Assembly (NCBI RefSeq): GCF_001421415.1
Contig: NZ_LMKH01000006.1
Span: forward strand, 40,963 to 92,896
Reading direction: 5' to 3'
DNA length: 51,934 bases
Origin: Sphingomonas sp. Leaf208
Lineage (GTDB): Bacteria; Pseudomonadota; Alphaproteobacteria; Sphingomonadales; Sphingomonadaceae
Shown here: piece by piece, positions 31,112-51,643 of the stretch
How the letters are laid out: the number at the start of each line of letters is the position of its first letter
How positions within the stretch are numbered: position 1 is the stretch's first letter
Position numbers and translations under genes: made by a program
The notes under the pieces: model-generated
Told to the model about the DNA's origin: nothing
The model's database searches: none
Seen by the model: the letters and a program-made list of their open reading frames with translations, nothing else

Positions 31112-34100
31112 GTGCAGAAGTCTGACGCCCCCGACCCTCTCCATGAACCGGTAGATCCGAGGTTCATGCTGGATCCACCGGAAGGAGCGGCTCCACGGCC
31201 ACCCGCTTCGACGCGTGCGCAGACGCTCCCGTTCCTGGAGCTTTCGCCGTTGGATTTTGAGCGGCTATGTCTACGGCTATCGCGCCTTTCCGGTAGTCCG
31301 GAGCATTGGCAGCTTTACGGCGCGACCGGTCAGGCCCAGGGCGGCATCGACATCTATGTGCGGCGCGGCGATCGTGACGGATATGACGTCTGGCAGTGCA
31401 AGCGGCACGCGCAATTCCCCGCGACCCTGATCAGGAAAGCGGTAAAGACGTTCCTCGAGGGTGGATGGGTGGATCGGACGCGGCGCTTCGTACTCTGCAC
31501 CGCCTCCCCGCTCGAGACTACAGGTCAGGCCGAGGAGATCGAGAAGCAGGCGCGGATCCTCCGTTCGCACAAGATCGAATTCGTGACGATTGACCAGCAT
31601 CGGCTATCCGAAACGCTTAAGGGACATGCCGATCTCGTCGATGACTTCTTCGGTCGACCTTGGACCGAACGGTTCTGCGGCACGGAGGCGGCCCGCGTCC
31701 TTAGCGGCAGGCTGGATCGTACGCGCATGGTCGATCTGCGCGCGGGTCTGCGGACACTATACGAACGCCAATTCGCCGCGGCGGACCCGGGCGTCCTGAG
31801 AGCGACCTCCGGGCTCGAGACGCCGCCGGTCGCGCTACCTCTAACCCGGCGCTTCGTGCCCCCCGACCTCTGGGCACCCAAGGAGGCCGACGAAGTACGC
31901 CGGCCTGACGTCAGGCCACCGTCCGAGGATGAGGACGATGGCCCACGACGCTGGCGACGAAGACGCATCGGTCCGATCAGCAGGGTCCGACGCACCGAGA
32001 CCCGATCGACCCCGCAGCGCATTAGCCTGACGCAGTGGTCCTTGACGACCGAGCGCTCCGTGATCCTCGGCGAGCCGGGGACGGGCAAGTCGACGCTGTT
32101 GCGCTTCGTCGCGCTGGACATGCTTTCACGGGAGCCGCGCCTCCAGAACTTGCGGAACCGTTGGCCAGGGCGCCTTCCCATCCTGCTTCCGTTCGCGTTC
32201 TGGACGCGGCGCCTCGCGGGAATTTCGGCAGGCCGCGAAACCTCGGTGCCCGGAGCTGTGAAGGCGTGGTTCGAGCAACTCGGAGCGGCCGACATCGCGC
32301 GTCACGTCGAGGCCGCCTTCAAGGACGGACGCGTCAGCCTGTTAGTCGACGGTGTCGACGAGTGGGCGGACGAGGCTGCGGCCGAGAGCGCGCTCACGAT
32401 CCTGCACACCTTCGCATCGGCCAGCGGCATCCCCACCATCGTCACCTCGCGACCCCACGGCTCGCGCGTGCTCGGGGCGCTCGACGCGACCTGGGTCCGG
32501 CACTCGCTGGCGCACTTCGACAGGTCGCAGCAGTGCTCCTTCGCAGAAGCCTGGTTCGAGTGGCTTGGCGAGGCTGAGGGGGGGCACAGGACGCCCGGGC
32601 AGGCTCAGGACCGCGCCGAGGCGTTTGTGGCGGAAGTCGCGAGGTCGCCCCATATCGCCATATTGGCGGGCGCGCCGCTTCTTCTAGGCGGACTGATGGC
32701 CACCGCCCGCGAGGGCGGCACGCTGCCGGGCTCGCGGAGAGAGGCATACACGGAACTGGTCGGACGCGTGCTCGAAAGCCATCCGCGAAGCCGGTCCAGG
32801 TCGGCGCTGACCCCCGTTGCACACGGCGAACTAGACGCGGCGACGCGCCGGCGAGCGCTGGCAGCGCTCGCATTCGAGATGCAGCGGGGAAGCGAACGGG
32901 CCCACGCGCCGGATGGAGCGGGCGTTGCGGAGGCCACGGTCTTCCTCCGCGACCATCTGATCGAGACGCTCGACCTTGCCGTGGAGCGTGCGCGACAACG
33001 GGCGTCCGAACTTGTGTCGGTCGGGGCCGAGGCGATCGGTATACTCGTGGAACGCGCACCCGGCGAACTCGGCTTCCTCCATCGGGCCTTCCAGGAACTG
33101 CTGGCAGCTGAACACCTCGCCGCGATGGATCTGGAGGAGCAGCGCAGGGTGTTTGCGGAAAGGGCCCACGACGCGCAATGGCGGGACGTGCTACTCTTCG
33201 CGGCGCAGATGGCGCAACGACCGGGCGACGTGGACAACCTCGTCTTGGCGCTCGAGGCCACCGAGGCGCCACCTGGTGTAGGGGTGTCCCGGGATTTGCT
33301 GCTCGCGGAGATGGCCTTCGGTCCACTGCGGCGCACCCCTGGCCTCACACGCCGTCTCACGACGAGGTTCCTGTTCGAGGTCGAGCACGGTTCCGGAAAG
33401 GCGCCCCGCTCGGAAGTGATGCGACACGCCCTACTGGGTCTGCTTTCGGAACAGACCGCCGGCATCGTGGGGCCGCGGCTGAAACGCTGGTATCCATCCC
33501 TCCATACCTACCGCTACGGCGACGCGTTCGCGATGATGGATGCGTGGCATGAGCCCGGCGTCGACGCGGCGCTGCTCCGCGCGCTCGATGCCGACGAGGA
33601 CGGTACCAGGTCCCGGGCGGCGGACGTTCTAGCCAAGCGGAGGGGCGGAGACAACGATTTTGCCGAGAAGCTGTTTGACGTGGCGTCCCGCCCCCCCTCG
33701 GTAGAGGCGGCGGCGGCGGCCGTGCGCTGCCTCGCCCGCGGGTGGCCGACAGAAGGACGGGTCCAGCGCCTAGCGGACGCCGCTGCCGCGTGCCCGACCT
33801 GGCAGATCGCCGCCGCGGGGATCGCGGCACGAATTGACTGGGGCCGTCAGACGGACGGGGAGCGGGACCGGCTCCTGGATGGCCTCACCGACTTCGGCAT
33901 CGACCGCACACACGCGTCGGTGGGGCTGTTGGCGGCGGGTTGGGCCAACGACGCCAAACTTCGCCAGTTCGTCATGGAGCGGTTGGGCAAGCCTGGGCAC
34001 CTCTTCTCGGACGTACGGCGGTTGGCGGCCGCCGCCTTCCCGGGCGACCACGAGGTCGCCATGAAACTCGCGAACGAACTCTCGTCGCCTGCCGGGCGCT

Positions 34101-36016
34101 TCGGTCTGCACGAGTGCTGGTCACTTCTCGAGCAAGCGCACGCCGGAAACGCCCTTCTAGCCGACGCCCTCGTCGCCGGACAGGACCGCTCGGACGCCCC
34201 CTACGTGCTCGCCCATGCGGCCCGGATCGCGGCAACGCCGAGGATAAGGGACGCGTTGCTGAAGGTGCTGCTCAAGCACGACAGCATAGAGTTCTGGGCG
34301 GTCGGCGCTCTGCTCGATCACTGGAGCGACGACGCCGAAGTGCGCGCAGCCCTCGCTGGCGTGCTGAAGTGGACACCGGAGCGGCTCATCCGCGTAGCCG
34401 AGCGCATCCCGGAACTCGAGGAGGACGCGGCCTTCGCCACGGCCCGCGTCCGTGAGCTCGCGCTCCTCGCCCTCGCCGCAGGTGGACGCCAGCTCGCGGG
34501 ACCGATGAACGTGCTGACATCGGCAAAGGCGATCGACGATCCACTTGCTGAGGCGTTGATCGCGGCGGCGTTAAACGTTGACCCGACGGCGGACGACGCC
34601 CCTTACTTGGTCATCGCCGCGGCACAGGCCGCACCGAAAGACCCTCGCGTGCATGCGCTTGCCTTGGATTGGTTGCGCAGGCCGGCAGGGCTGCTCGGCG
34701 TGCTCGCGCTGCTGCTTGGCGAGGTGGCCTGCGTAAGAGAGGCGGTGATCGAATCCTGCGCGCCGCTGCCACAACCGCTGCGGAGCGAGCTCACCGAGGC
34801 GCTGGCCGGGATCGCGGGCAGCAGCGGCGAGGCGCTGGAGACCTTGCGCGAAGGGGAAGGCGACGGCGACCCCGCGATCGCGGCGGACGCAACGGTGCTG
34901 CACGCCGCCGCCGTGCACCGCAGGGGAGAGATCGACGAGGTTTTGCTAAGGCGGTTGGAGGCGCAGCTGCAGGCGAAGGGCACCGACCTCGAAAACCTGC
35001 GACTCGCGGCACTGGCGGGGCTGATGGCTGCCGGACGCCCCGGGGAGGCCGCTAGAGGAGCGGCAGCGCGCGACAGCCTCAAGGTCGGGCTGTCGGGATG
35101 GAGCTCTGAGACAGACGGACCCCTGCTCGACGTGCTTGCGGCGCACTGGCCGGAAATCGAGCAGCTGTACGCCACCGGGACGACGTGGCTCGAACTTACC
35201 GACTCGGACCTGGTTAGCCGGCTGGCCCCCTGGTCGGAAGGCCGCCCACGGCTCTCGGCCGCTATCAGGGAAGCGGCCATGCGCATGGCGGAGGCGGGCA
35301 CCTCGACCCTCCACTCCCTGAAGATCCTGCTCCGCGATCCGGAAACGGCCGATCGCGCGATCGATCCGCTCGTTGCCATGCTCGGCTCGGACGGCAGCTG
35401 GGCCGGTGTAGAGGGCGCACTGGGCGCCGCGCGCGCGCTCGCGGGCACATTCGGTGGCCGGCGGGACGTGGGGGCGCTAATCGAGGCGCGTCTGCAGGCC
35501 GGCCTCACCGACGGTCCCGCCGCAGCGCTGTGCGACGGCTGGCCGGACAGCAAGGTCTTGGGGTCATGGTTCGAGACATTACGGGCGGGGCTCGCGGACC
35601 AAGACACGCTCTCGATCCCGGTCAGACTCAAGGTGATCGCCACACTGTCGGCGGCCGATGTGCTGATCGCAAACTTGGAGGCGGTGCCGGACCAAGTAGA
35701 GGAGGACGATCACGACTGGACCACCCAGTGGGCCGACAATGCCCGGAGGAGGCTCGCGGTCGACGAGGTGGCCTACGACATGGCCTGGGCGAGCTTGCGC
35801 CGCTCCAACTCACCCGGCGCGCGAGCAAGCCTCGCCTCATTGCTGGTCCAGGCTCGCGGACTGACCGCCGACCTGCGCGACTGGCTGGTCGCCGAGATGG
35901 ACTCCGATCTCGGCGACGGCCTCGCCGAGATCGGCATGGACGTCGTGGCAGGCCACCACGTCGTTACCGCACGCCGGTTCGCAGACCTCCTTTGGAACGG
36001 CGGGGCGCCGACCTGA
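31112..36016 (+). CDS. Mrr-like nuclease fused to a NACHT STAND NTPase
   Basis: A 1,634-residue protein in three parts. Residues about 40-170 form a PD-(D/E)XK restriction-endonuclease domain of Mrr type: FLELSPLDFERLCLRL, GGIDIYVRR (D80) and VWQCKRH (Q95, K97). Residues about 315-670 are a NACHT/STAND NTPase: Walker A GEPGTGKST at about 319, Walker B LLVDGVDEW at about 409, the TIVTSRPHG sensor, and FLHRAFQELLAAEH. The remaining 950 residues are alpha-helical HEAT-like repeats, the likely sensor. This is the architecture of Avs/bNACHT anti-phage proteins, where a phage product binds the repeats and switches on the nuclease. The start may be GTG 31112 or ATG 31166; the latter has GAGG just before it. 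Confidence 0.9.
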   Translation: MQKSDAPDPLHEPVDPRFMLDPPEGAAPRPPASTRAQTLPFLELSPLDFERLCLRLSRLSGSPEHWQLYGATGQAQGGIDIYVRRGDRDGYDVWQCKRHAQFPATLIRKAVKTFLEGGWVDRTRRFVLCTASPLETTGQAEEIEKQARILRSHKIEFVTIDQHRLSETLKGHADLVDDFFGRPWTERFCGTEAARVLSGRLDRTRMVDLRAGLRTLYERQFAAADPGVLRATSGLETPPVALPLTRRFVPPDLWAPKEADEVRRPDVRPPSEDEDDGPRRWRRRRIGPISRVRRTETRSTPQRISLTQWSLTTERSVILGEPGTGKSTLLRFVALDMLSREPRLQNLRNRWPGRLPILLPFAFWTRRLAGISAGRETSVPGAVKAWFEQLGAADIARHVEAAFKDGRVSLLVDGVDEWADEAAAESALTILHTFASASGIPTIVTSRPHGSRVLGALDATWVRHSLAHFDRSQQCSFAEAWFEWLGEAEGGHRTPGQAQDRAEAFVAEVARSPHIAILAGAPLLLGGLMATAREGGTLPGSRREAYTELVGRVLESHPRSRSRSALTPVAHGELDAATRRRALAALAFEMQRGSERAHAPDGAGVAEATVFLRDHLIETLDLAVERARQRASELVSVGAEAIGILVERAPGELGFLHRAFQELLAAEHLAAMDLEEQRRVFAERAHDAQWRDVLLFAAQMAQRPGDVDNLVLALEATEAPPGVGVSRDLLLAEMAFGPLRRTPGLTRRLTTRFLFEVEHGSGKAPRSEVMRHALLGLLSEQTAGIVGPRLKRWYPSLHTYRYGDAFAMMDAWHEPGVDAALLRALDADEDGTRSRAADVLAKRRGGDNDFAEKLFDVASRPPSVEAAAAAVRCLARGWPTEGRVQRLADAAAACPTWQIAAAGIAARIDWGRQTDGERDRLLDGLTDFGIDRTHASVGLLAAGWANDAKLRQFVMERLGKPGHLFSDVRRLAAAAFPGDHEVAMKLANELSSPAGRFGLHECWSLLEQAHAGNALLADALVAGQDRSDAPYVLAHAARIAATPRIRDALLKVLLKHDSIEFWAVGALLDHWSDDAEVRAALAGVLKWTPERLIRVAERIPELEEDAAFATARVRELALLALAAGGRQLAGPMNVLTSAKAIDDPLAEALIAAALNVDPTADDAPYLVIAAAQAAPKDPRVHALALDWLRRPAGLLGVLALLLGEVACVREAVIESCAPLPQPLRSELTEALAGIAGSSGEALETLREGEGDGDPAIAADATVLHAAAVHRRGEIDEVLLRRLEAQLQAKGTDLENLRLAALAGLMAAGRPGEAARGAAARDSLKVGLSGWSSETDGPLLDVLAAHWPEIEQLYATGTTWLELTDSDLVSRLAPWSEGRPRLSAAIREAAMRMAEAGTSTLHSLKILLRDPETADRAIDPLVAMLGSDGSWAGVEGALGAARALAGTFGGRRDVGALIEARLQAGLTDGPAAALCDGWPDSKVLGSWFETLRAGLADQDTLSIPVRLKVIATLSAADVLIANLEAVPDQVEEDDHDWTTQWADNARRRLAVDEVAYDMAWASLRRSNSPGARASLASLLVQARGLTADLRDWLVAEMDSDLGDGLAEIGMDVVAGHHVVTARRFADLLWNGGAPT

Positions 36017-36642
36017 GTGCGACGGGAACCGCCGGGATGCGACCGGGCTTGGGCAACGGCGCGGCCTTCGAAATCGCTGTGCACGCGGAGACGTCTTCAA
36101 CCCTTCCCCACGGCAAAGCATTAAAAGTGGACTAGTGACCATCACCTCCAGGGAGCCGGCGGCACGCCGCCCGAGCACGAAACATGTCGGCGGCTCCATA
36201 GCCCACTCCAAGAGGAGACGAATTCCTCCGTGATGATTCGTCGTTCTCTACACGTGAGCGATTTCGAGCGCCTCCCGTTTCGCCAACCGCACCCGACCTT
36301 TGGAGGTGTCGACAATATCGCTGGGGACGGAGGCGGTGGCGGCCTTGCGTTCGTGACGTAGCCGCAAGCGGATAGTTGGACGGGCCTGCGCTTCTGCACG
36401 ATCTCGGCGTATTCGCACGGCGCCGCCGACCGCAGCCGCCAAAGCTTGCCACGGGGCGATCGGTCGGATTGAGAAAATCCGCCAAGCACACCCACGTCGC
36501 GCCCGGTGCGCAATGACAAAGCGAACGCGCTTCACCGGTTTTCGTCGGTCAATCCGCCCGAAGATCATCATCCAGATTCCGAAGTGGCGATCAAGCGGCA
36601 GCTGGGCAGGCTTCGGCGTTTCCACTGGTTCCAGCCCTCCCC
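36017..36642. other. 620-bp gap upstream of the giant RT gene
   Basis: Between the STAND gene and the RT gene lie about 620 bp without a convincing gene. Minus-strand frames are open but their proteins lack any fold-like pattern. It is unusually long for a tightly packed defence island. Several defence RTs need a structured non-coding RNA encoded upstream, so this is the place to look for one; I found no clear stem-loop by eye. Confidence 0.4.
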
Positions 36643-39600
36643 TTGCGTCATGACGGTTCGAGCAGCACCCTTCGAGGTGGCGACGGGGATGGGGAACAGA
36701 GTTTGGCGCGAGCTGCAAAGAGCGGAAATGACGAGGTTGCGCGTGTCATCCAACGCGCCGACATCGAAATCGTGGCAAAATCCCTGGGCATCCAGGTTGA
36801 CAACAGGGGTCGGCAGCCACTTCGTGCGATCTGTCCGTTCCACGACGACAGCGATCCATCCCTTAACCTGTACAAGGGCGGCGCAGCAGCCGGCGAACGA
36901 GACCACTACCATTGCTTCGTCTGCAGCGCGCACGGCGATGTCGTTTCTCTCATTCAGAATTTCGAGCGGATAGGCTTCTGGGAAGCGGTTCAGAGGCTCG
37001 CAAGCATTCAAGGGGTGGAGATCGCGTCATCGCGGCGCGCACCCGTGGATCGCCGCAGCGGCTCGGCGATCGTCTCCGAGCTCATCGAGAACGCGCCTGT
37101 CGATGATCCAAGCCTCATCGCCTTCGCCGCTGATCGCGGTTTCGACGCTGACTTCATTAAGCGATCACACGCAGCCGTGGTCGATCTTCGAGAGATTTCC
37201 AGACAGGCTCAGGCTGACAGGACAATCGAAGAGCGACTGGTCGAAGCCGGCATTCTTCGTCGGGGTGAGAGAAAGGGCAACGAGCCGGAGCTCTATGGCC
37301 CCACCTTGAAGAGCTTCTTTGGCGGGCGACGTCTGGTCTTCAAGATCACGGACGTTCACGGCGAGACCGCAGGCTTCGCCGCCCGTGCGACGGGCGGCGA
37401 CGTTCCAAAATACCTATTCTCGTACGATTTTCCGCGTCGAAGCACGTTGTACGGGCTCGACAGCATTGCTCATCACGTCCGATCCACCGCGACAGACGCC
37501 TCTGCGGGGCCCATCGAGATCTACCTGGTCGAGGGAATATTCGACGTTCTCCGGTTGCGATCGTTCGGCCTCCTAGCGGCTGGTGTCCTGGGTTCAAGGA
37601 TCACATCGGGCCAGCTGGCGAACCTCAGCGGCGTCATCCAGTCCGCCCGGGATACCGGACGACAGGTCGTGCTACGCCTGCTGTTCGATCGTGACGCCGC
37701 CGGTCGGCGTGGGACGTACGACGCTGCGATCAGCTTGCTGACCTTGCTCGGTCAAACCCACCCGTTCGATCTGGAGGTGATCTGGCCGGCCGGCGACGGA
37801 GAAGCCAAGATCGATCCAGACTCGTGGCTGAAGGGGCTCGATAGAACACAGGCTCTTCAAACCCTTGCCGCCGCACGACTTCCGGCGCTGACCTTTCTTG
37901 CGGCCTTCCGCCTGGGCGCTGATCCTCACGCGATCGAATGGGAAAAGTACGGCCGACTGAAAATCGCGGCGGAGGCGCGCGCGGTCGCGCTCTCCATCCC
38001 TGGCGCACTATGGTCAAATATCCTGGCCCCGCTGGACACGGGTAGTGCGGGTGACGGCCTAGCCGAATTCTCGGCGCTGGTGCGCGGCTACGGTGGGCAC
38101 GCCATCGTGCCAGGCCAATCCGCCGAACTGCTCAAAAGGTATCGGGATCCAGCCGACGACCGCGCAGACTTGCTTTCCGCGCTCACGCTCGGGCGTTCCT
38201 CGACCTCGCGTCGAGAATATCCGCTCGACGACTACGCATGGGAACGGCTGACGGTCGCGGCTTCTCCCCTGTTCCACATCCACCGGGCCAGGCTTAAAAT
38301 CGGAGATGGGCCTTCGGCGCCGTTGCTATCCCGATCACTCCCCAAGGGAGATGATCGCTACCGACTCAAATCCGGCCCCGTTGCGGAGGATGCCCTACTC
38401 CAGCAATATGTGATGCTCGAGTTGCTCAGGGATCGCCTCGACTGCCAGTCATTCGCGGAGATGATTCCGGCTGTTCGATACGCACCGGAACGTGGCGCCG
38501 CTAAGGCACTCTACCGGACTGGATCCACTGGCGAACGCACTTCCCTGAGCTTCGCATATCAAATCGACATGGACATCGTGAACGGGGAACGTCCGCCACG
38601 ACGCGAGGGCATCTTCCGCCCTTACTTCGAATGCTGGCGGTCATTCGTCGATTTCCTCGATGACAGTATCAAGCGCTTCGAACACGAGGACTTGCAGATC
38701 CTCCGCCTCGACATAACCGGGTTCTACGACAACGTCAGGCGTGACGTCGTCTCGGGCGCATTGGTAGGGCCGCTCGAGCACGCGCTCAATCTTCTTCCCG
38801 CAGCAGATGACGACGCACCTGGATTCGCTCCGATGCTAAGACCAGATGCGGGTCACAGCACCGCAGGCCGTGCCGAGGCCGTCACCGGTTTCCTGCTCAA
38901 TCATAGCTTTGGCCTAAGCTACCTCGATCCCGAAACGGGCAAGTCCAAGATTCATGACCAGCGGCTCGGCATTCCGCAGGGCCCCGACCTCTCCGCCTAT
39001 CTAGCGAACATCGCATTGTTCGACCTAGACGACATGATGGAAGCTGAGATCGATCAGCTGGCCAAGGTCGATCGTGGAAGTACGAGCGACGACGCGTCGC
39101 CAAGGTGTGCCGCTGCATATGCGCGGTATGTGGACGACGTCGTTCTGATCTGTCGCGATCTCGAGACGGCGAACGCCTTGAGGCGAAAGGTGGAGGCGTG
39201 GCTCGCGCTGAAGGGCCTTACGCTCAATCGTAAGAATGTGACCCCGCCGCCGATGACCCGCGCCGAGGCCCGGGCCTGGCTGACTGACAACAGAGCCGGT
39301 TTCGGTTTTTCGGGACCACTTGCGGACCTGCCTAACACAGACGCGATGGACCCCCTTGCGGATGCGGGCGAGATTGACCGAAAAACCGCCCTCGGTCTAC
39401 TCTTCGATCCTGAGCTGGACGATCCCGCGAACGCCGACACAAGTATTGTCCGGTTAGGCATGGCGCTTAGCGCCCCGGACATACGGTTCAACGATAGAGC
39501 CAGCGCCTATCGGCGTTTTTGGTGTCTCGCCGCGAACAGACCTGACGTCGACGACGGGCAATCCCTCGCGGATGCCTTCTGGTCCATGCTTCTACAAGCC

Positions 39601-42600
39601 GAACCCCAAACGGCACTTTTGGCCGGCAGTGAGAAGGCTCTCGATATTGGACTGGCCTGCCTCGAAGGTCTGGATCGGGCCTTACGATCATCCACGCACA
39701 TGAACACACTGGCCGAGGAAGCGTCGGAGCAGGTTGCGGCAATTCTCCTGCGGCTGTCCGCAAATGTTCTCGACGACGTTTTCACGCCGCTCGCCAGCCA
39801 CGTGCTGGGCGGTTCGAAGATAGCGCTTCTGCTTAACCGGTTCGACATCAGATGTCAGACGGCGATCATCGCATGCCTGGCGGCACAGCGATTGCTAGAC
39901 AAGTCTAAGCCGTTTGGATTCGCTCGGGTCAGCCCGCATTTTTCCGAGACTTGGTCGGGAGAAGGTAGGCAACCACTTCCGGAGGGACTGCGCCTCTCAC
40001 TCGTCAAGTTCGATCCTGCGTTCGCCCCGGCGGCACCGCCAAGCATCCTACAGGGACAATCCAAGACAGATGCCGCCTTTGCCAACCTCAACCGAACGAT
40101 CGTTGCGCTTCAGCGTGTCGCATCCCACGGGGCGGACGAGGAGCTCATCCCCTACGACGCCGCAGTCGCCGAGGAGCTCAGCCCAATCGCCAGTCTGACA
40201 AGCTTGATCATGCGGGTGTGGACACCCTCAGACGCCGGTTCTCACGTCTCCCATTCGGCGCAGGCCATCGAGCTCGATGCCGCAGCAACACTGGTCAACA
40301 TCACCTACGCGAACTTCGCGGATGTCGCAGCGCGGCGGCCCAGGTTGATGCACCTCATAGCAAACACCTCCAACGCCGTGCCACTGCCCTCGCCGCCAGG
40401 CCTCGAGACTTCTGGAATCATGCTTTGGTGCGATGAGAACAGATTGCTCCTGGCAACCGCCGAAGGGGCAGACGCGGCGCCGGTCGGGACGAACTGGACG
40501 GACACCAGCACCCAGTCCGTCCCCGGGATACGACTTAGGGTTTCAGATCTTCCGGGCGACTACGTGCCTCTGTTCCTGATAAGACGAGAATGGACTCCCG
40601 GCGCGATAGCCACCGTCTACCGCGCGGGCTTTCCGGCGTTCGCCGCATCCTTGTTGACCGTGGACGGTCGCGTACCTGTACCCACAGCATTCTCGTTCTT
40701 CGTCAGAATGGCGTCGGAAGCTGAGGATCTTACTGCCGTAAAGCTCATCAGCTGGGACGCATCGCGCGACAGCGTCGATAGCCTCGCGTTCGTCCGCGCC
40801 GGCACCTCGCTTGGCGCGAAGAAGGTCTTCTTCGACGGCGCTGACTACTGGCGATATGGCTGGGCCGTCCGCGATGTCTGCGAGCGCGCCAATCTGGCGA
40901 CAGATGAGGAGCCTGGCATCGATGCCGACGCACTTACAAAACTTCACCGCGACATCCAGCGCCGTGAGGCGATCGTGGTTCGAGTGCTGCCAAAGCTTTC
41001 CGGTGCAGATCGATGGGGCGCCGGCGATGTCACTGCCGAGAAACCAATACCAACCCGAGTCGAACGAGCACTAAGCCTTCTAGAGCATTTCGACGCCTCC
41101 CAATCCCCCGCAAGCCACGCAGCCTATCTCGTCGCGGCGATGGCCGAGGGCATGTACATGAGCGAGAGGATCAACTCGGACGTCAATCTCGGAACGCCCG
41201 GGCAGCCCGCGGCGCTCATGGTCCGTTCCTCGCGCCGACTGACGCGAAGTCTTCCCGAGGCCGTGAAGCTCTGGCCGGGCACGATCGACGCGCCGCTTCC
41301 ATATCGGAGAAGTGCCGCAGCATGGCAAACCATAAGTGTCAAAATTGCCGACCATATCCCCGGTGTCGCCCGCAGCGCTGTTCCTCCGCTCATGAATCTT
41401 TCGCTCGGGGTCGGTATTCTCGCCGCCGTGGCCGATATCCGGGCGCTGGCGTTCGAACTGACAAGCGGCCTGCCGCGCGAAGCGATCGAGCAGTTGGAGC
41501 AGTGTGGGCTCGAGCCTTCATGGTTGAGCGATCTCGTCGGGCTTGACGTGATCCTAGTCGATGCAGACGGCAGCAATGTCGATCTCAGCCTGGATGGCCA
41601 GGCGCGCACGCTGCTCAAGACGTTCAGCCAGATCGTGCTCGGACGCAAAGGTGGCCTCGGTGCGCTGCGTGACCGCATCGCTCCGACCGGCTGGGCGGTT
41701 CTGGTCGCGATCCTCCTTCAGGTGGCGCCCTTGCGCCAGAGCAGAGAACGCCTGAGACCCCGTCTTTGGCCGATGGATGCGACCAGGCTCGCCCAAGCCG
41801 AGACCGCACTCTGCGAACTCATCCGGTTTTTCACCAGCACGTGCGAAACTCCGGAAACAGACGAGGAGTGGCCGTGGGGCGCATTCCAGGAGTTGGGACG
41901 AAACAAGCCGAGCGATCTCGCCGCCGTGCTGCGCACGCTGACCGAATGCGCTCGTCTCGACGTGACCAACGAGGAATCCTGGTCGAACCCCCGCACCGGC
42001 GAGTCGCAATCCGATCGAGCGGTCATGCGACTGGCGGACGGAAGCTCGCAGAGTCTGGCGGACTGGCAGGTCGACATCGCCCACTCGCGCGGGGAGCGAG
42101 GCACGGCGACAGAGGCCCTCTCCGTGGGGAGCCGAATGCGCTTCCGCTATTCGGTTAGCAGGCGCGAAGATCAGGTGCTCGGCATGCACCTCATCTCGCG
42201 GCAGCTCGCCGATGCCGTCTTTGGGGAGCATGGCGAGATCCCAAACACGGCAGCGACTTCCCCAACACCAATTCATGGAGGGGATCCGTTCGATGCCGGT
42301 CCGCGCAGGTCCTCATCAAACCGGGAGCGCACCGAAACGCCAGCGATCGAGATCGGAGGGGAGCCACGAGCGGATACGGAAATGGACGCAGCAGGATCGA
42401 CGCCTGCTCCAACGCCAGCGTCGGTGCAACCGACAGACGCGGACGACCTCGGAATTCCGCCGCTCGAAACGCTTCGGAGAATTCAACGCTCGTCGTGGAC
42501 AGCCCGAGGAAAGGACAAGAGCTTAACCGCACGCCGGATGGCCATCGTGCAGTGGGACGTTGCGGAGACGTACTCCTCGCCTGGAGACGGAGACGGCAAA

Positions 42601-44253
42601 CTTGAAGGATTGCTGGCCCCGGCGAGCAGCATCGTTGCCGCCAAGGGAAAAATCAAAAAAGGCGGTTTGTTCGTATCGACGACCGAGTTTAGACGGCGCG
42701 CGATCCTAAGAGAGGTTCTCGAGGCTTGTAAGCAGTTCAAGGTCGAGGGGATCGTACTTCCGGAATACAGCGCCCGCCCGGAAACGGTCAACTGGCTGGC
42801 GCGCCGCATTCGAACGATGGCGCTACCCGTTACAATCTGGTCGGGCACGTTTCGGGTGCCGTCGGGCACCCAGCTCGACCGAAACTATCTGCCAAATGCA
42901 CTGGTGCCGTTCGTGACGGCTGACCTCGCAACAGCACCCGCCGGCCGCGACCGCTGGGAAGCGCATACCGCCCTCCTGTCGTGCCTTCGAACTGTGGTGA
43001 GCAAGGACGGGCAAGGGATCGATTCCGCGCATTTCGTTAGACAGAAACGATATCCTTCCGCGGCGGCCGGCGAACTGATCAGACCGCCTCTAAACATGTC
43101 TTGGTCTCCGCAATTGGACAATGTGACGGATCCCTTCGACATCGGCACTTTTTCGCTCGAGCTCATTTGCTCGGAAATGTTTCCACATGCGAGCAGCGCG
43201 AATTTCGTCGGCGTCATAGAGGAAAATCACGAACTCGCGCGCCGCTATCAACTTCCGAATAGCAGTCTGGCACCATTCGAATATCTCAGCAACGACATCT
43301 ACGAGTTTGCCAGATGGACCGCGTACCGAAATCCATTGACGGTAGTCGGGGATCCACATGACAAACTCGCGCGAGGAAAGAAGCTTCAGCGTACGCTCGT
43401 CGTCCTGCCGGCGATGACAGCCCGCTCCGCGGATTATCACATATTCGGGCAAAACCAGTATCTCGCGACGGGCCTGGTAACGGCATTCTGCAATGCAGTG
43501 TCCCCACCATATGGATGTGGCCAGAGCGCCTTCGTCGGCCTGGACGGCTGGAAGATCACCGAAGCAATCCGCACGCCCTACGGCTCTAAGTCTCCAGGCG
43601 TATTTCAGCTCGGCAGCAGCAAACATAGCGGTCCACTAGGTAAAAACGAGTCGGCCGTCGTCATCGCCGATCTGGACCTCCTTCGAACGACCGAGCAGAA
43701 ACCGACTCCGCACTACCAGACCAAAGCATTGAAACTCGTGGCGCATCTGCCGATGATTTTTGCGACAGAACGCGGACGCGGGGGTGAGGCTGTGGGCGAC
43801 TATCCGCATAAGGATCGCCGAGTTCGCAAAAAGGCGGTGAATGGGGTCGAGAAGATCTTTGAAGAAGCCGCGTACGTTCTTCTAGCCGCCCTGCAGGCTG
43901 AGGGTTCATGGCGTTCCGTCGAGAATGTGGCAAATCCTGCAACATCCCCGTCGGCGAACTACATTGGCGCCATAGATGCTACCCGTAATGCCTTGCTCCT
44001 GCTGGAGCAGTTCGTCGACGATCCTTCATGGATGGTCAAGCGAACCGCGTCGTTCGCGGATGAACGTTACAAATTCCCCCCGGTCTCGCCGCTACCTGTC
44101 CTCGTGGACTGGATCTACGTCGACGATCGCTGGCAGCCGGATCCCCGGACGCTGGCGCAGCCCGCAGGCGAAGAAGATGCGCTTACATCTGACCGGCCGG
44201 TCCTCGCGATCCCCGCATCGATGGAGGACGACCCACGTCGCGAGGCGGGCTGA
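36643..44253 (+). CDS. Giant DnaG primase-reverse transcriptase-nitrilase fusion
   Basis: A protein of about 2,536 residues. Residues about 40-420 are a DnaG-type primase: a CHC2 zinc finger (C64, H67, C91, C94), a TOPRIM_N-like region (GRRLVFKITDVHG, VPKYLFS, STLYGLD), and TOPRIM with YLVEGIFDVL and LLFDRDAAGRRG. Residues about 600-950 are a reverse transcriptase: motif A ILRLDITGFYDNV (D690), LGIPQGPDLSAYLAN, and YVDD (D831, D832). About 1,000 unassigned, mostly helical residues follow. Residues about 1966-2250 are a nitrilase-type hydrolase with Glu (E2041 in GIVLPEYS), Lys (K2135 in FVRQKRYPS) and Cys (C2176 in LELICSEMF). RT-nitrilase pairing is that of defence RT type 1 (UG1). The first codon is TTG at 36643 or, more likely by position of the zinc finger, TTG at 36703. 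Confidence 0.92.
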   Translation: MRHDGSSSTLRGGDGDGEQSLARAAKSGNDEVARVIQRADIEIVAKSLGIQVDNRGRQPLRAICPFHDDSDPSLNLYKGGAAAGERDHYHCFVCSAHGDVVSLIQNFERIGFWEAVQRLASIQGVEIASSRRAPVDRRSGSAIVSELIENAPVDDPSLIAFAADRGFDADFIKRSHAAVVDLREISRQAQADRTIEERLVEAGILRRGERKGNEPELYGPTLKSFFGGRRLVFKITDVHGETAGFAARATGGDVPKYLFSYDFPRRSTLYGLDSIAHHVRSTATDASAGPIEIYLVEGIFDVLRLRSFGLLAAGVLGSRITSGQLANLSGVIQSARDTGRQVVLRLLFDRDAAGRRGTYDAAISLLTLLGQTHPFDLEVIWPAGDGEAKIDPDSWLKGLDRTQALQTLAAARLPALTFLAAFRLGADPHAIEWEKYGRLKIAAEARAVALSIPGALWSNILAPLDTGSAGDGLAEFSALVRGYGGHAIVPGQSAELLKRYRDPADDRADLLSALTLGRSSTSRREYPLDDYAWERLTVAASPLFHIHRARLKIGDGPSAPLLSRSLPKGDDRYRLKSGPVAEDALLQQYVMLELLRDRLDCQSFAEMIPAVRYAPERGAAKALYRTGSTGERTSLSFAYQIDMDIVNGERPPRREGIFRPYFECWRSFVDFLDDSIKRFEHEDLQILRLDITGFYDNVRRDVVSGALVGPLEHALNLLPAADDDAPGFAPMLRPDAGHSTAGRAEAVTGFLLNHSFGLSYLDPETGKSKIHDQRLGIPQGPDLSAYLANIALFDLDDMMEAEIDQLAKVDRGSTSDDASPRCAAAYARYVDDVVLICRDLETANALRRKVEAWLALKGLTLNRKNVTPPPMTRAEARAWLTDNRAGFGFSGPLADLPNTDAMDPLADAGEIDRKTALGLLFDPELDDPANADTSIVRLGMALSAPDIRFNDRASAYRRFWCLAANRPDVDDGQSLADAFWSMLLQAEPQTALLAGSEKALDIGLACLEGLDRALRSSTHMNTLAEEASEQVAAILLRLSANVLDDVFTPLASHVLGGSKIALLLNRFDIRCQTAIIACLAAQRLLDKSKPFGFARVSPHFSETWSGEGRQPLPEGLRLSLVKFDPAFAPAAPPSILQGQSKTDAAFANLNRTIVALQRVASHGADEELIPYDAAVAEELSPIASLTSLIMRVWTPSDAGSHVSHSAQAIELDAAATLVNITYANFADVAARRPRLMHLIANTSNAVPLPSPPGLETSGIMLWCDENRLLLATAEGADAAPVGTNWTDTSTQSVPGIRLRVSDLPGDYVPLFLIRREWTPGAIATVYRAGFPAFAASLLTVDGRVPVPTAFSFFVRMASEAEDLTAVKLISWDASRDSVDSLAFVRAGTSLGAKKVFFDGADYWRYGWAVRDVCERANLATDEEPGIDADALTKLHRDIQRREAIVVRVLPKLSGADRWGAGDVTAEKPIPTRVERALSLLEHFDASQSPASHAAYLVAAMAEGMYMSERINSDVNLGTPGQPAALMVRSSRRLTRSLPEAVKLWPGTIDAPLPYRRSAAAWQTISVKIADHIPGVARSAVPPLMNLSLGVGILAAVADIRALAFELTSGLPREAIEQLEQCGLEPSWLSDLVGLDVILVDADGSNVDLSLDGQARTLLKTFSQIVLGRKGGLGALRDRIAPTGWAVLVAILLQVAPLRQSRERLRPRLWPMDATRLAQAETALCELIRFFTSTCETPETDEEWPWGAFQELGRNKPSDLAAVLRTLTECARLDVTNEESWSNPRTGESQSDRAVMRLADGSSQSLADWQVDIAHSRGERGTATEALSVGSRMRFRYSVSRREDQVLGMHLISRQLADAVFGEHGEIPNTAATSPTPIHGGDPFDAGPRRSSSNRERTETPAIEIGGEPRADTEMDAAGSTPAPTPASVQPTDADDLGIPPLETLRRIQRSSWTARGKDKSLTARRMAIVQWDVAETYSSPGDGDGKLEGLLAPASSIVAAKGKIKKGGLFVSTTEFRRRAILREVLEACKQFKVEGIVLPEYSARPETVNWLARRIRTMALPVTIWSGTFRVPSGTQLDRNYLPNALVPFVTADLATAPAGRDRWEAHTALLSCLRTVVSKDGQGIDSAHFVRQKRYPSAAAGELIRPPLNMSWSPQLDNVTDPFDIGTFSLELICSEMFPHASSANFVGVIEENHELARRYQLPNSSLAPFEYLSNDIYEFARWTAYRNPLTVVGDPHDKLARGKKLQRTLVVLPAMTARSADYHIFGQNQYLATGLVTAFCNAVSPPYGCGQSAFVGLDGWKITEAIRTPYGSKSPGVFQLGSSKHSGPLGKNESAVVIADLDLLRTTEQKPTPHYQTKALKLVAHLPMIFATERGRGGEAVGDYPHKDRRVRKKAVNGVEKIFEEAAYVLLAALQAEGSWRSVENVANPATSPSANYIGAIDATRNALLLLEQFVDDPSWMVKRTASFADERYKFPPVSPLPVLVDWIYVDDRWQPDPRTLAQPAGEEDALTSDRPVLAIPASMEDDPRREAG

Positions 44254-44284
44254 ACGGCTGACGGACTAATGCTAGGGGGTGAAA

Positions 44285-45175
44285 ATGATTGATGATCCTG
44301 AAAGCGTCGTGCGAGAGCTTGAGGCGAGCGGCAAATACCGTGTGCTCCGCAGGCTCGATCTGCCTCGGCAGCTTGCGGAGAACCTCGGCACTCCAACCAA
44401 GTGCGGCATCTTCCTCGACATCGAGAGCACAGGTCTGAACCCCGTGCTGAACGAACCGATCGAGTTCGCGATGGTGCCATTCGAATATACAAAGGATGGC
44501 AGGGTGGTCGCTGTTCGCGAACCACTTCATCAGTTCAACGAACCAACGGAAGCCATCCCTTCAGAGATAACCGCCATAACCGGACTCACGGACGCCCATG
44601 TTGCGGGTCACAAACTCGATGTCTCCGCCATCGAGATGTTCGCCGCGCAGGCCGCGATCATAATCGCGCACAACGCCGCTTTCGATCGCCCATTCGCGGA
44701 ACGGATCTCGCCAGTGTTTGCCGCAAAGCCGTGGGCGTGCACGATGTGCGACGTACCGTGGAAAGAGGAAGGCATCGATGGCCGTCGACTGTCGGATCTG
44801 CTCTCGAGATTTTCATATTTCTTCGACGCGCATCGCGCCGTCGACGACTGCAATGCAGGCATTGCGTTGACCACCATGACATTGCCCGTCAGCGGTCGAA
44901 CGGTTCTCGACAGGCTTCTGGAGGTGGCGCGTCAGCCGACCTGGCGAATTTTTGCAGAAGGGGCCCCGTTTGAGACAAAGGAGGTTCTCAAACAGCGCGG
45001 TTACCGATGGAACACGGACGCTGCCGTTGGCCCGCGCGCTTGGCGCATCGACCTCGACGAAGCCAGAGTTGAAACCGAAATCGCGTTCCTCAAGACGGAC
45101 ATCCTGGGTTCGCGATCGATCCCGTCCGTGAGCGAGATAACCGCCTTCCAAAGATATTCGGCAAGAAACAGGTGA
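44285..45175 (+). CDS. DnaQ-like 3'-5' exonuclease
   Basis: A 296-residue DEDDh exonuclease: motif I GIFLDIESTGLNP (D and E), motif II AHNAAFDRPFAE, motif III HRAVDDCNAGIAL. The C-terminal 80 residues (RIFAEGAPFETKEVLKQRGY, RAWRIDLDEARVETEI) occur in exonucleases of this DnaQ subgroup. It starts 31 bp after the giant gene. The ATG at 44285 has AGGGGG five bases before it and is preferred to the GTG at 44279. It almost certainly works with the RT protein, perhaps trimming or proofreading the product, or acting as effector. Confidence 0.9.
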   Translation: MIDDPESVVRELEASGKYRVLRRLDLPRQLAENLGTPTKCGIFLDIESTGLNPVLNEPIEFAMVPFEYTKDGRVVAVREPLHQFNEPTEAIPSEITAITGLTDAHVAGHKLDVSAIEMFAAQAAIIIAHNAAFDRPFAERISPVFAAKPWACTMCDVPWKEEGIDGRRLSDLLSRFSYFFDAHRAVDDCNAGIALTTMTLPVSGRTVLDRLLEVARQPTWRIFAEGAPFETKEVLKQRGYRWNTDAAVGPRAWRIDLDEARVETEIAFLKTDILGSRSIPSVSEITAFQRYSARNR

Positions 45176-45179
45176 ACCT

Positions 45180-45194
45180 CAAGCCAGTGGCTTG
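45180..45194. terminator. Hairpin after the exonuclease gene
   Basis: CAAGCC and GGCTTG form a 6-bp stem with a 3-nt loop (AGT) five bases after the exonuclease stop. No T-run follows, so termination strength is doubtful. The next 250 bp up to mcrC contain no gene that I accept. Confidence 0.35.
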
Positions 45195-45443
45195 ACCATG
45201 GCGCGAGCGCAATCGAGCCCGATCCCCTATCCACCTTCCTGGTCTCGACGATACGGCTGTTCGCCAGCAGATGAAGCTGTTGAAGGCCGTCGAGGCCGGT
45301 GCTGGCTTCCGTGCGGCAAAGCTATTGTACTGAGGGGTAGAGCTGCCACTGAGCGCTATATGAACGAACGTCTGCTTACGCTGGCTTGGCGCTCCAAAGC
45401 GGCCAGGCCGCCGTCGACCAGTACTCAACTTAACGTGTGCGTC

Positions 45444-49079: not shown

Positions 49080-49106
49080 TTAATCAGCCACCCGCTCGAA
49101 TTTCAC
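49080..49106 (-). pseudogene. Start of a large terminase gene, cut after eight codons
   Basis: GTG at 49106 overlaps the small terminase stop as GTGA and reads VKFERVAD followed by a stop TAA. In P27-type phages the next gene is the large terminase, whose product commonly opens with a KF-x-R-A-x-x-type start. The stub fits such a gene interrupted by the island junction. Confidence 0.4.
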
Positions 49107-49570
49107 TCCCCAAAATAGTGAGCCAATGGGTCAGCTTCCTCCTCATCAGCGAGTGATATTCTTGCACGCGCTGCCGGCGAGAAGCCGAGTTCCGACACCA
49201 GCGACCGCATAACAATTGCCTGCTTGTTGAGAACGGAGAGCCATGGGGACTGGATCGGTGTGCCGTTAGCGGTCTTGATGATGACGGGTGTGGAATTGAC
49301 CATCTCGGTCGCCTTCCGATGCAGGCAAAGGGCAATGCACCACGTCTCAAGCACGGGACCATCGCTCGCTTTCAACAGACCCCTGGGGGCGTGCTGTATC
49401 GCATAGACCCAGATGGCCCGCTGCTGGTCGTTGAAGTGGCCGGGCGCGTCACTCAGCTCACCCATCGCGACCGGTTCGTTTTTGCGCTCGTTCAGACGGT
49501 AGTGCTGACCGTCGACCAGCTTCAACTGGGTTGGCTTGCGTTTGCGGCCCGAGTTTCCGTTTCCCGCCAT
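49103..49570 (-). CDS. Phage terminase small subunit, P27 family
   Basis: A 155-residue P27-type small terminase: MAGNGNSGRKRKPTQLKLVD, the helical KNEPVAMGELSDAPGHFNDQ and FSPAARARISLADEEEADPL ending. It recognises phage DNA for packaging. Its start overlaps the methyltransferase stop as TAATG. The presence of a small subunit without its large partner shows that the prophage is incomplete. Confidence 0.9.
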   Translation of the reverse strand: MAGNGNSGRKRKPTQLKLVDGQHYRLNERKNEPVAMGELSDAPGHFNDQQRAIWVYAIQHAPRGLLKASDGPVLETWCIALCLHRKATEMVNSTPVIIKTANGTPIQSPWLSVLNKQAIVMRSLVSELGFSPAARARISLADEEEADPLAHYFGE

Positions 49571-51027
49571 TATCGGCTGCTCGACCCGATACGCTCATCC
49601 GCGATTTCTGAGAACGTGCGACCGTCCTCGGCGAGCGTTGCGCAGCCGCTGGTGAAGTCCTGCCAACGACGCACAATCACATCAACGAACCGCGGATCCA
49701 ACTCACAGAGCCTGGCCTCCCGGCCCAGCGTCTCACAGCAAATCAACGTCGACCCCGAACCGCCAAACAGATCAAGCACGACGTCGCCGGGCTTGGTCGA
49801 GTTGCGCAGCATGCGAGCGATCAGTTCAACCGGCTTCATCGTTGGATGCTCAGCCGAGCGCGTTGGCCGATCGATCCACAAAACCGTAGGTTCGAGGGGG
49901 CGAACGTTCAGGTCGGTCCCAGAAACAATAAGGGACTCATTGCCTACCCTGACCAGGACGGTTCCGTCCGCATTTTGCGAGAACACAGACCCGCCGAGCT
50001 CACGGATGGTCGTTGCCTTACGACCACCATACCACCGATGCCGTGCCCCTGGCTTCCATCCATACAGTACCGGCTCATGCTGCCACTGATAATCGGACCG
50101 GCCGAGTACCAACGCGTTTTTACGCCAGATCAAGCAGCCGGATAGTTTGAAGCCCGCTGACCGAAAGGCAGAGCGAAATGCCAAACCTTCGGTATCGGCA
50201 TGGGCGACGTAGCACGCAGCACCTGACTGAAGGACATCGAACGCAACGGTCATGGCTTGGGTCAAGAATGTTTGGAACAGTTCCCCTTCCATGCTGTCAT
50301 TTGCGATCTTGCCGGCTTTTCCGCGGTAATCGACATTGTAGGGCGGGTCGGTCCAGCATGCGTCAGCCAGGTGTCCTGCCATGAGCTCGGCAACATGCGC
50401 CGCTGACGTGCTATCACCACAAATCACTCTGTGGACGCCAAGCTGCCAGACATCGCCAATCCTCGACACCGGAGTGGGCGCAAGGTTAGGCGCGTCGTCA
50501 GGATCCGTTAGATACTTCGATGCGGCAGGATCCATCGCCTCGAGCTCGTCGCCGGTAAAGCCCGTCAAATCCATGTCGAACCCAAGCTCAACGAGGTCCT
50601 TTAGCTCTGCAGCTAGCAATTCCTCATTCCAGCCTGCGTTGAGCGCGACTTTGTTATCAGCCAGCACATAGGCTCGGACCTGGGCGTCACTCCATCCGAC
50701 CGCCTCGAGGGTCGGGACCTCAGTCAGGCCTAGCTGCTCGGCCGCTAGCAGACGGCCGTGACCTGCGATGACACCATCGGTCTCCGCGCGCACCAACACT
50801 GGGGTGGTCCATCCGAACTCACGAATAAGCCGAGCAATCTGTTCAACCTGCTCTACGGAATGGGTGCGAGCATTTCGCGCATAAGGCACCAGGTCGGCTA
50901 CTCGTCGCATCCGGGGCCGTGACGACGGCCAGCCATCAGAACCGGAGTTGTTGGTCGTCTCGGACGCTGACAAGGCGGTGTTCGCGATCAGCTTATTCGA
51001 CTTACGTCTTGTCGTGGGATTCGTCAT
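49570..51027 (-). CDS. ParB-domain DNA methyltransferase
   Basis: A 485-residue fusion: ParB/Srx-like domain at residues about 40-135 (LVPYARNARTHSVEQVEQIA, VIAGHGRLLAAEQLG) and a class beta methyltransferase with DPPY motif at about 227-230 (CWTDPPYNVDYRGKAG) and a C-terminal SAM motif LDLFGGSGSTLICCE. The target is probably adenine or N4-cytosine; phages use such enzymes to resist host restriction. I chose the ATG at 51027 (MTNPTTRRKSN) with GGGG upstream over the ATG at 51168. Confidence 0.93.
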   Translation of the reverse strand: MTNPTTRRKSNKLIANTALSASETTNNSGSDGWPSSRPRMRRVADLVPYARNARTHSVEQVEQIARLIREFGWTTPVLVRAETDGVIAGHGRLLAAEQLGLTEVPTLEAVGWSDAQVRAYVLADNKVALNAGWNEELLAAELKDLVELGFDMDLTGFTGDELEAMDPAASKYLTDPDDAPNLAPTPVSRIGDVWQLGVHRVICGDSTSAAHVAELMAGHLADACWTDPPYNVDYRGKAGKIANDSMEGELFQTFLTQAMTVAFDVLQSGAACYVAHADTEGLAFRSAFRSAGFKLSGCLIWRKNALVLGRSDYQWQHEPVLYGWKPGARHRWYGGRKATTIRELGGSVFSQNADGTVLVRVGNESLIVSGTDLNVRPLEPTVLWIDRPTRSAEHPTMKPVELIARMLRNSTKPGDVVLDLFGGSGSTLICCETLGREARLCELDPRFVDVIVRRWQDFTSGCATLAEDGRTFSEIADERIGSSSR

Positions 51028-51115
51028 TTGACCCCCCTTCCATTTTTCGCTTTCAGACAAAATTATGACCCACGCCGGTGTCCAGCGTGCGGCGCCAGCC
51101 TTTGGTTTAGCCCCC

Positions 51116-51643
51116 TCACCGGGAACGCGCCTTTGCTTCCGCGATGAGAGGTGCAACGCAATCTCCAATGCTCATCCCCTCGGGCGGTCTGGCAGCGTGC
51201 CGCTTACTTCCTGATTCACTTCCCAGATTCTGTCGGTCAACCTGACCGGCTTCGACTGTCCAACCTGACGGCATGAGCGTACGATTTGGCCGTACGGGAG
51301 CCCGAGTTATCCACAGGTTTATGCACAGTTGGTAAGTGTTGGTTCGGCGCGTGCGCGGCGTGCAAATGATTTGCTTGATGTACGAACGTTCTTTGAGATG
51401 ATCGATCGCACGTGACGCAGTGCTTACGCTGAAACCGCACCGATCTGCCAAAGTCTGCTCTGATGCATAACAACGAAGCGATCTGTTGCCGAGACGAGCC
51501 ATGATCAGCAGCATGTGGTTAGCTGGCGCGTTACCGGTATCCACGTCGAATGCGAGATCAAGCGCGCGCGGTTTTTTCCGCAGCGGCGCAAAGCTTGAAA
51601 TCTCCCGACTTTGCGCCGGCGCTGCGGAACCGGCCGCGGTCAC
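51116..51643 (-). CDS. Helix-turn-helix protein, phage replication/regulatory type
   Basis: A 175-residue protein with a MarR/replication-type HTH: NHMLLIMARLGNRSLRCYAS, EQTLADRCGFSVSTASRAID, HLKERSYIKQI. Similar domains occur in phage replication proteins and helix-turn-helix DNA-binding proteins. The ATG overlaps the stop of the upstream regulator as ATGA. The C-terminal third is low in structure and ends in APLIAEAKARSR. Confidence 0.65.
   Translation of the reverse strand: MTAAGSAAPAQSREISSFAPLRKKPRALDLAFDVDTGNAPANHMLLIMARLGNRSLRCYASEQTLADRCGFSVSTASRAIDHLKERSYIKQIICTPRTRRTNTYQLCINLWITRAPVRPNRTLMPSGWTVEAGQVDRQNLGSESGSKRHAARPPEGMSIGDCVAPLIAEAKARSR

Follow-up and report, generated by a model that had tools for sequence, protein, structure and literature searches.

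A 51,934-nucleotide stretch of the Sphingomonas sp. Leaf208 genome (contig NZ_LMKH01000006.1, positions 40,963 to 92,896; hereafter the window) contains two adjacent genes on the forward strand, encoding a giant protein with primase, reverse transcriptase (RT), and nitrilase regions and a DEDDh exonuclease, respectively. The giant is encoded by an open reading frame (ORF) of 2,536 codons (36643-44253), the size given for it in a preliminary description of this DNA. The corresponding frames in three related loci (L006, L007, and L008) start at window codon 21 (TTG 36703), and a homolog 98% identical to the window protein (P0001) is 2,516 amino acids (aa) long. Because these starts and this length agree, we prefer the TTG start, and the protein is likely 2,516 aa long. 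Residues are numbered from 36643, the listed start of the ORF.

Profile searches placed a CHC2 zinc finger (Pfam, 59.8 bits; cutoff, 24.9) and an RT domain (RVT_1, 34.8 bits; cutoff, 29.6) in this chain. DNAG_N (23.2 bits; cutoff, 26) and Toprim fell below their cutoffs, and no nitrilase match was found in Pfam at an E value of ≤1. The remaining parts were recognized by other means. The primase end matched the solved DnaG structure 2au3 (E value, 1.2e-55) over the same region as the dnaG model TIGR01391, and its zinc finger and TOPRIM acidic residues identify it as a DnaG relative. Because its TIGR01391 score of 117.9 bits is under the equivalog cutoff of 283.6, the primase end is, judged by its sequence, a DnaG-like core distinct from housekeeping DnaG. 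No DnaB- or helicase-binding domain was matched in the giant by Pfam at an E value of ≤1; residues 430 to 600 lie outside the structure models. For the nitrilase, AlphaFold gave a confident model that matches CN-hydrolases, and with E2041, K2135, and C2176 this assigns the predicted domain to its superfamily by both fold and Glu-Lys-Cys set. The preliminary description was thus right to see a DnaG core, an RT, and a nitrilase in one chain. The middle region is modeled as helices, a weak kinase-like fold (residues ~1245 to 1482), and then helices with a beta domain.

Table 1. Features of the two-gene cassette in the window
Feature	Position	Strand	Evidence
Two-gene cassette, main block common with the S. 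faeni locus L005 (97.3%)	36553..45190	+	
UG29 giant	36703..44253	+	Homolog starts and RT_UG29 profile
DnaG CHC2 zinc finger, residues 31-129 (C64, H67, C91, C94)	36733..37029	+	Pfam, residue conservation
DnaG RNA-polymerase core with TOPRIM, ~residues 159-421 (E297, D301, D349, D351, D391, D393)	37117..37905	+	
Reverse transcriptase, ~residues 600-960 (D690, Q779, YVDD 829-832)	38440..39522	+	
S890, candidate priming residue	39310..39312	+	Inference from comparison with DRT1 S402
Middle region, residues 961-1858	39523..42216	+	Structure model of residues 930-1858
Nitrilase (CN-hydrolase) domain, ~residues 1963-2360 (E2041, K2135, C2176)	42529..43722	+	
C-terminal extension beyond nitrilase	43723..44250	+	
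DEDDh DnaQ-like 3'-5' exonuclease (NF006615 / PRK09182 family)	44285..45175	+	Pfam, NF006615, motifs

The giant is a member of the UG29 family. The PADLOC profile RT_UG29 (PDLC03767) matched it with 1938 bits from residue 29 to 2503, covering profile positions 3 to 2271 of 2280, and the window protein therefore has the full DnaG-to-nitrilase layout of the family. A separate PADLOC model for RT-associated DnaG-like proteins scored 134 bits. The next RT profiles were UG10_large (69 bits) and Drt1a (38 bits; best stretch, residues 657 to 855). The giant had been described as a UG1/DRT1-type RT with an unusual added primase; this assignment gives way to UG29, since Drt1a is not its best match and the layout is already catalogued. 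Nor is it a DRT7/UG10 protein: an archaeo-eukaryotic PrimPol fused to the RT gave no Pfam match at an E value of ≤1, and DnaG parts are present instead. A protein on Polaromonas plasmid pPNAP05 (L042) scored 2734 bits to RT_UG29, and the lower score of the window giant puts it off-center in the profile. The UG/Abi RT families were reportedly defined by Mestre 2022. Class 3 of these RTs is described as single multidomain proteins that join an RT to a nitrilase or phosphohydrolase (PMC13275509); the giant, with RVT_1 and a nitrilase fold in one frame, fits this definition.

A total of 106 homologs of the giant were found (107 alignment rows with the window). Sixty-one (P0001 to P0061) are 33 to 98% identical to it, with names including Sphingomonas, Brevundimonas, Rhizobium, Devosia, and Hoeflea; the others (P0062 to P0106; 26 to 34%) include Burkholderia, Pseudomonas aeruginosa, and Methylobacter. 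The fusion might have been an assembly error, but this is ruled out because 101 of the 107 rows exceed 2,300 aa. Five of those 101 (P0037, P0052, P0053, P0055, and P0056) are without part of the primase end, and the other 96 carry all segments. Among rows aligned at each site, the zinc-finger residues C64 (100/100), H67 (98/100), C91 (100/100), and C94 (101/101) are almost always kept, as are the TOPRIM residues E297, D301, D349, D351, and D391 (each 105/105) and D393 (102/105). The RT residues D690, Q779, Y829, D831, and D832 are invariant (each 106/106), and the nitrilase set is nearly so (E2041, 104/104; K2135, 102/103; C2176, 103/103). Because these catalytic residues hold across rows, the primase, RT, and nitrilase all look active. 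In a tree of DnaG cores, 25 UG29 cores separated with 100/100 support from 16 housekeeping DnaG sequences (of 26 obtained, all from the window's order), and this argues against the primase having been captured recently and locally. Twelve rows sampled from the P0001 to P0061 band grouped together (97/90), and those from the P0062 to P0106 band did not.

The exonuclease gene begins at ATG 44285, 31 bp past the stop codon of the giant, with GTG 44279 as an alternative start (ORF 44279-45175). Its product scored 56.6 bits to Pfam RNase_T and 345.5 bits to NF006615 (cutoff, 207), which places it in that family, and it carries the DEDDh motifs LDIESTG, HNAAFD, and HRAVDD, in agreement with the preliminary description. 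PADLOC gave a generic DEDDh match (83 bits) and one weak match. The proposed partnership of the two genes also held up: the two genes stand in this order and orientation in all six intact alphaproteobacterial loci examined, namely the window, L005 to L008, and a S. aerolata plasmid. The giants of these loci are 97% (L005), 64% (L006 and L007, whose cassettes are near-identical to each other), 50% (L008), and 98% (S. aerolata) identical to that of the window. Pairwise dN/dS values against L005 are ~0.15 and ~0.18 for the two cassette genes.

Near-identical copies of both genes were found amid unlike surroundings. The flanks of L005 differ from those of the window on both sides, except for a 58-bp piece (45353-45410), and the S. 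aerolata plasmid (L041 and L051) shares window positions 36383 to 45190, with a right edge identical to that of the L005 block. The cassette is apparently mobile. A 58- to 68-bp stretch beyond that edge (45353-45420) is 91 to 93% conserved in L005 and L051, the preceding 160 bp not being conserved; it could serve as a terminator or in recombination. A decayed cassette was also seen (L061, G675): just the final 240 residues of the giant survive, with an IS-type transposase (rve) upstream of them, and the exonuclease reading frame is still open.

The exonuclease family extends well beyond UG29, to 9 of 190 alphaproteobacterial genomes and 351 plasmid records, mostly from Rhizobium and Sinorhizobium. 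We inspected 14 plasmid loci beyond S. aerolata: 8 hand-picked from the 30 best-ranked, among them H20, chosen for an overlapping ATPase in its listing, and 6 of 11 others taken in an even spread. Gabija genes gajA-gajB lie directly downstream of the exonuclease in four of these loci (L088 and L090, checked with PADLOC; L091 and L094, by annotation), and an annotated pair lies nearby on the opposite strand in a fifth (L093). SIR2-HerA accompanies the exonuclease in one locus (L092), and HipA lies beside it in another (L087). Among the eight genome loci besides the window's, L062 has SIR2-HerA and no defense partner was seen in the others (the neighbors of L066, L067, and L069 being unscanned). 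In a 29-row exonuclease tree, the seven UG29-linked sequences form one clade (100/99), the four Gabija-linked sequences another (95/99), and the two SIR2-HerA-linked sequences a third (100/98); L093 joins the HipA row, and the even-spread rows fall outside the partner clades. Because clades follow partner, the tree suggests that the exonuclease has adapted to each system. The cassette thus shares with Gabija and SIR2-HerA loci an adjacent exonuclease of one family, and differs from them in effector and in exonuclease clade. The family could possibly be a shared accessory of unrelated defense systems.

DRT1, a nitrilase-bearing RT system, offers a mechanistic comparison. It is described as making template-free DNA on Ser402, with both RT and nitrilase required and the DNA assembling the nitrilase, and its activity depends on a phage single-stranded DNA helicase (PMC13275509). 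Like UG29, DRT1 has an RT, a further region, and a nitrilase with a Glu-Lys-Cys set in one chain; unlike UG29, it has no primase and is only 1,229 (9YFD) to ~1,300 aa long. The RT regions of the two families aligned over 197 columns (E value, 9e-14) with hhalign, for which 101 of the 107 UG29 rows were used, the 6 rows under 2,300 aa being dropped. In a DRT1 alignment of 116 relatives and the query (120 listed of 2,347 found, 4 of ≤1,200 aa dropped), S431 of L044 is serine in all 117 rows and lies 27 residues past a conserved RT lysine, which we take to belong to RT motif E; the lysine-to-serine distance in 9YFD is 29 residues. UG29 has a counterpart in S890, 26 residues past K864; of 106 rows, 101 have Ser at this position, 4 have Tyr, and 1 has Val. 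Because a hydroxyl is kept through the Ser-Tyr change in an otherwise variable loop, S890 is a candidate priming residue. Its position, like that of the DRT1 priming serine, would make protein priming at least as likely as self-priming by the primase.

We give about even chances to the reading that the cassette is an abortive-infection phage defense in which RT-made DNA licenses damage to the infected cell by the nitrilase and the exonuclease trims or erases that DNA. A defense role had been proposed from the sequence, and it gains support from the PADLOC classification of UG29 as a DRT model and from the exonuclease relatives beside Gabija and SIR2-HerA. From the comparison of the two families, we favor a DRT1-like license of the nitrilase by DNA. 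By this analogy, the first strand would start on S890, and DNA synthesis would assemble and activate the nitrilase. Most likely, the DnaG part would be used on the DNA product, laying an RNA primer on the first strand for a second-strand copy by the same chain; alternatively, it might sense single-stranded phage DNA. The exonuclease would keep the DNA short in the absence of phage, until the balance was tipped by phage proteins protecting 3' ends. This balance is modeled on DRT4, in which protein-primed DNA is set against host exonucleases and a phage protein guards 3' ends against them (PMC13314766). DRT4 differs in using host exonucleases and a single RT, with no nitrilase or primase named in the excerpt of that source.

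Several observations weigh against this account. The nitrilases of UG29 and DRT1 align over only 35 columns, best at the catalytic Glu (E value, 5e-5; probability, 67%), and their middle regions gave no profile match, so the logic of DRT1 may not carry over. HMMER pairs S402 with S431 of L044 at low confidence, with a 2-residue gap there, and S890 could presumably be just an FLG-like primer-grip position. According to the DRT1 study, other class 3 DRTs show no conservation of S402 (PMC13275509). The Polaromonas UG29 locus has no NF006615-family exonuclease within 27 kb, unlike all readable loci of the window's branch, and the exonuclease is therefore not required throughout the family. Finally, the exonuclease has no clear partner in 7 of the 14 plasmid loci, including all 6 of the even-spread set.

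The preliminary description had instead proposed that primer synthesis and reverse transcription in one chain could start cDNA with no separate primer, the exonuclease processing the product. In such a model, DnaG would lay an RNA primer for the RT to extend along an RNA or DNA template, and the exonuclease would proofread. We regard this as possible, though on the unlikely side. The near-invariance of the primase residues suggests that primer synthesis is probably real, and concerted priming and reverse transcription was earlier proposed for the RT-primase family UG10 (PMC8934634). A preprint cited in PMC13174585 reports, by its title, proofreading exonuclease activity for the known PrimPol-RT hybrid. 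However, several studied DRTs (DRT1, DRT4, and DRT9) are said to prime DNA synthesis on protein (PMC13275509, PMC13314766), and only one of the 106 UG29 rows has neither Ser nor Tyr at the S890 position. No template RNA was found, since an Rfam search of the whole window returned no known RNA and the DNA upstream of the giant aligned just with the close copies L005 and L041.

A bolder form of the preferred reading, in which RT-made DNA licenses the nitrilase, would make the alphaproteobacterial UG29 branch a one-chain double-strand DNA factory and death switch, with one strand started by the RT on S890, the second strand primed by the DnaG part, and the switch sprung when the DNA assembles the nitrilase. 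The exonuclease would be its built-in antitoxin, erasing the DNA signal for as long as phage proteins leave it unprotected, and the exonuclease family would be an exchangeable safety module also of Gabija and SIR2-HerA. Taken as a whole, this chain of proposals is doubtful.

It is improbable that the DnaG part is chiefly a sensor of single-stranded DNA or phage fork proteins, with a TOPRIM that does not prime. DnaG zinc fingers and TOPRIM domains bind single-stranded DNA. The helicase dependence of DRT1 would fit such a sensor, yet one would not need the full catalytic carboxylate set, which is invariant at five positions, and Pfam matched no DnaB-binding domain at an E value of ≤1. Very little weight goes to the cassette being a replication or maintenance module of plasmids or islands. 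The giant occurs on plasmids and among integrases, the exonuclease family is widespread on plasmids, and primases and exonucleases are common plasmid genes; against this, UG29 belongs to a catalog of defense RTs, the giant occurs patchily (2 of 385 class genomes), exonuclease relatives lie beside Gabija and SIR2-HerA, and we know of no nitrilase role in replication. Least likely of all, the exonuclease might travel with the giant by chance: its family is common and often solitary, and the sole betaproteobacterial UG29 locus examined has none, but same-strand adjacency in every intact alphaproteobacterial locus examined, even where the giant is as little as 48% identical, unlike flanks, and a clade of its own argue otherwise.

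The DnaG-RT-nitrilase fusion itself is not new, because PADLOC catalogues the architecture and dnaG was listed in 2021 among the domains occasionally found near RT genes (PMC8934634). We found no functional account of UG29 in the open-access literature searched, nor any mention there of the exonuclease-UG29 pairing or of the exonuclease links to Gabija and SIR2-HerA, although no search covered the exonuclease together with SIR2-HerA; this is weak evidence that the pairing and these links are new. DRT7/UG10 likewise joins a primase and an RT in one chain (PMC13213688, PMC13174585, PMC8934634), with an exonuclease activity reported in a preprint title, and UG10 is the second-best RT profile for the giant. 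Its primase is of the archaeo-eukaryotic type rather than the DnaG/TOPRIM type, no nitrilase is named in the excerpts of these sources, and the exonuclease of UG29 is a separate gene. If the proposed reading is true, a replication-type bacterial primase was captured by an antiviral RT, in parallel to the PrimPol-RT of DRT7, and immune systems would have combined primase, RT, and 3'-5' exonuclease repeatedly. The occurrence of the exonuclease beside Gabija and SIR2-HerA points to an accessory common to these systems, one that is testable in existing laboratory systems, and S890 offers a one-residue handle on whether protein priming spans the DRTs that carry a nitrilase. A protein able both to initiate and to copy DNA unaided would, in addition, be of interest for DNA-synthesis technology.

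The giant is patchily distributed. A search without the DnaG part found it in the 2 class genomes mentioned above, the window's own and one with a fragment. The UG29 profile matched 387 of 396 order genomes, with one full-length copy, the window's own; the best other match listed (202 bits) covers the primase end only and is a housekeeping DnaG. The giant occurs in 2 of 72,556 plasmid records and was not found in a search of phages. A search with P0075 gave no matches in 398 phylum genomes and had no positive control, and a UG10 search gave none in 190 genomes and also none in its 14 controls.

The window also encodes two tyrosine integrases, a serine recombinase, an Mrr-NACHT protein, McrBC, and a DNA methyltransferase, and a tyrosine-degradation cluster adjoins these genes. 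The STAND and McrBC genes had been cited in support of a defense role. They are present, but the block shared with near-identical copies stops near the edges of the two cassette genes, and these neighbors therefore say little about function; they gave no tblastn match in the available flanks of L005 to L008, L041, and L042. The STAND gene, upstream at 31112-36016, encodes a 1,634-aa Mrr-NACHT protein. The Polaromonas UG29 gene likewise has a NACHT protein nearby, though the window STAND protein has no tblastn match there; in that locus, a DNA/RNA non-specific endonuclease gene precedes the UG29 gene and an IS1182 transposase comes after it. At 49103-51168, an ORF resembling a phage terminase small subunit lies beside the DNA methyltransferase, whose N terminus has a ParB-like match under the cutoff, and this region is perhaps a prophage remnant. 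Elsewhere in the same genome (G000) are a DRT3 pair on contig 34 (L001 and L003; Drt3a, 404 bits; Drt3b, 669 bits) and a retron-type RT on contig 10 (L004; RT_VI, 189 bits), so that with UG29 it holds at least three RT-based defense candidates.
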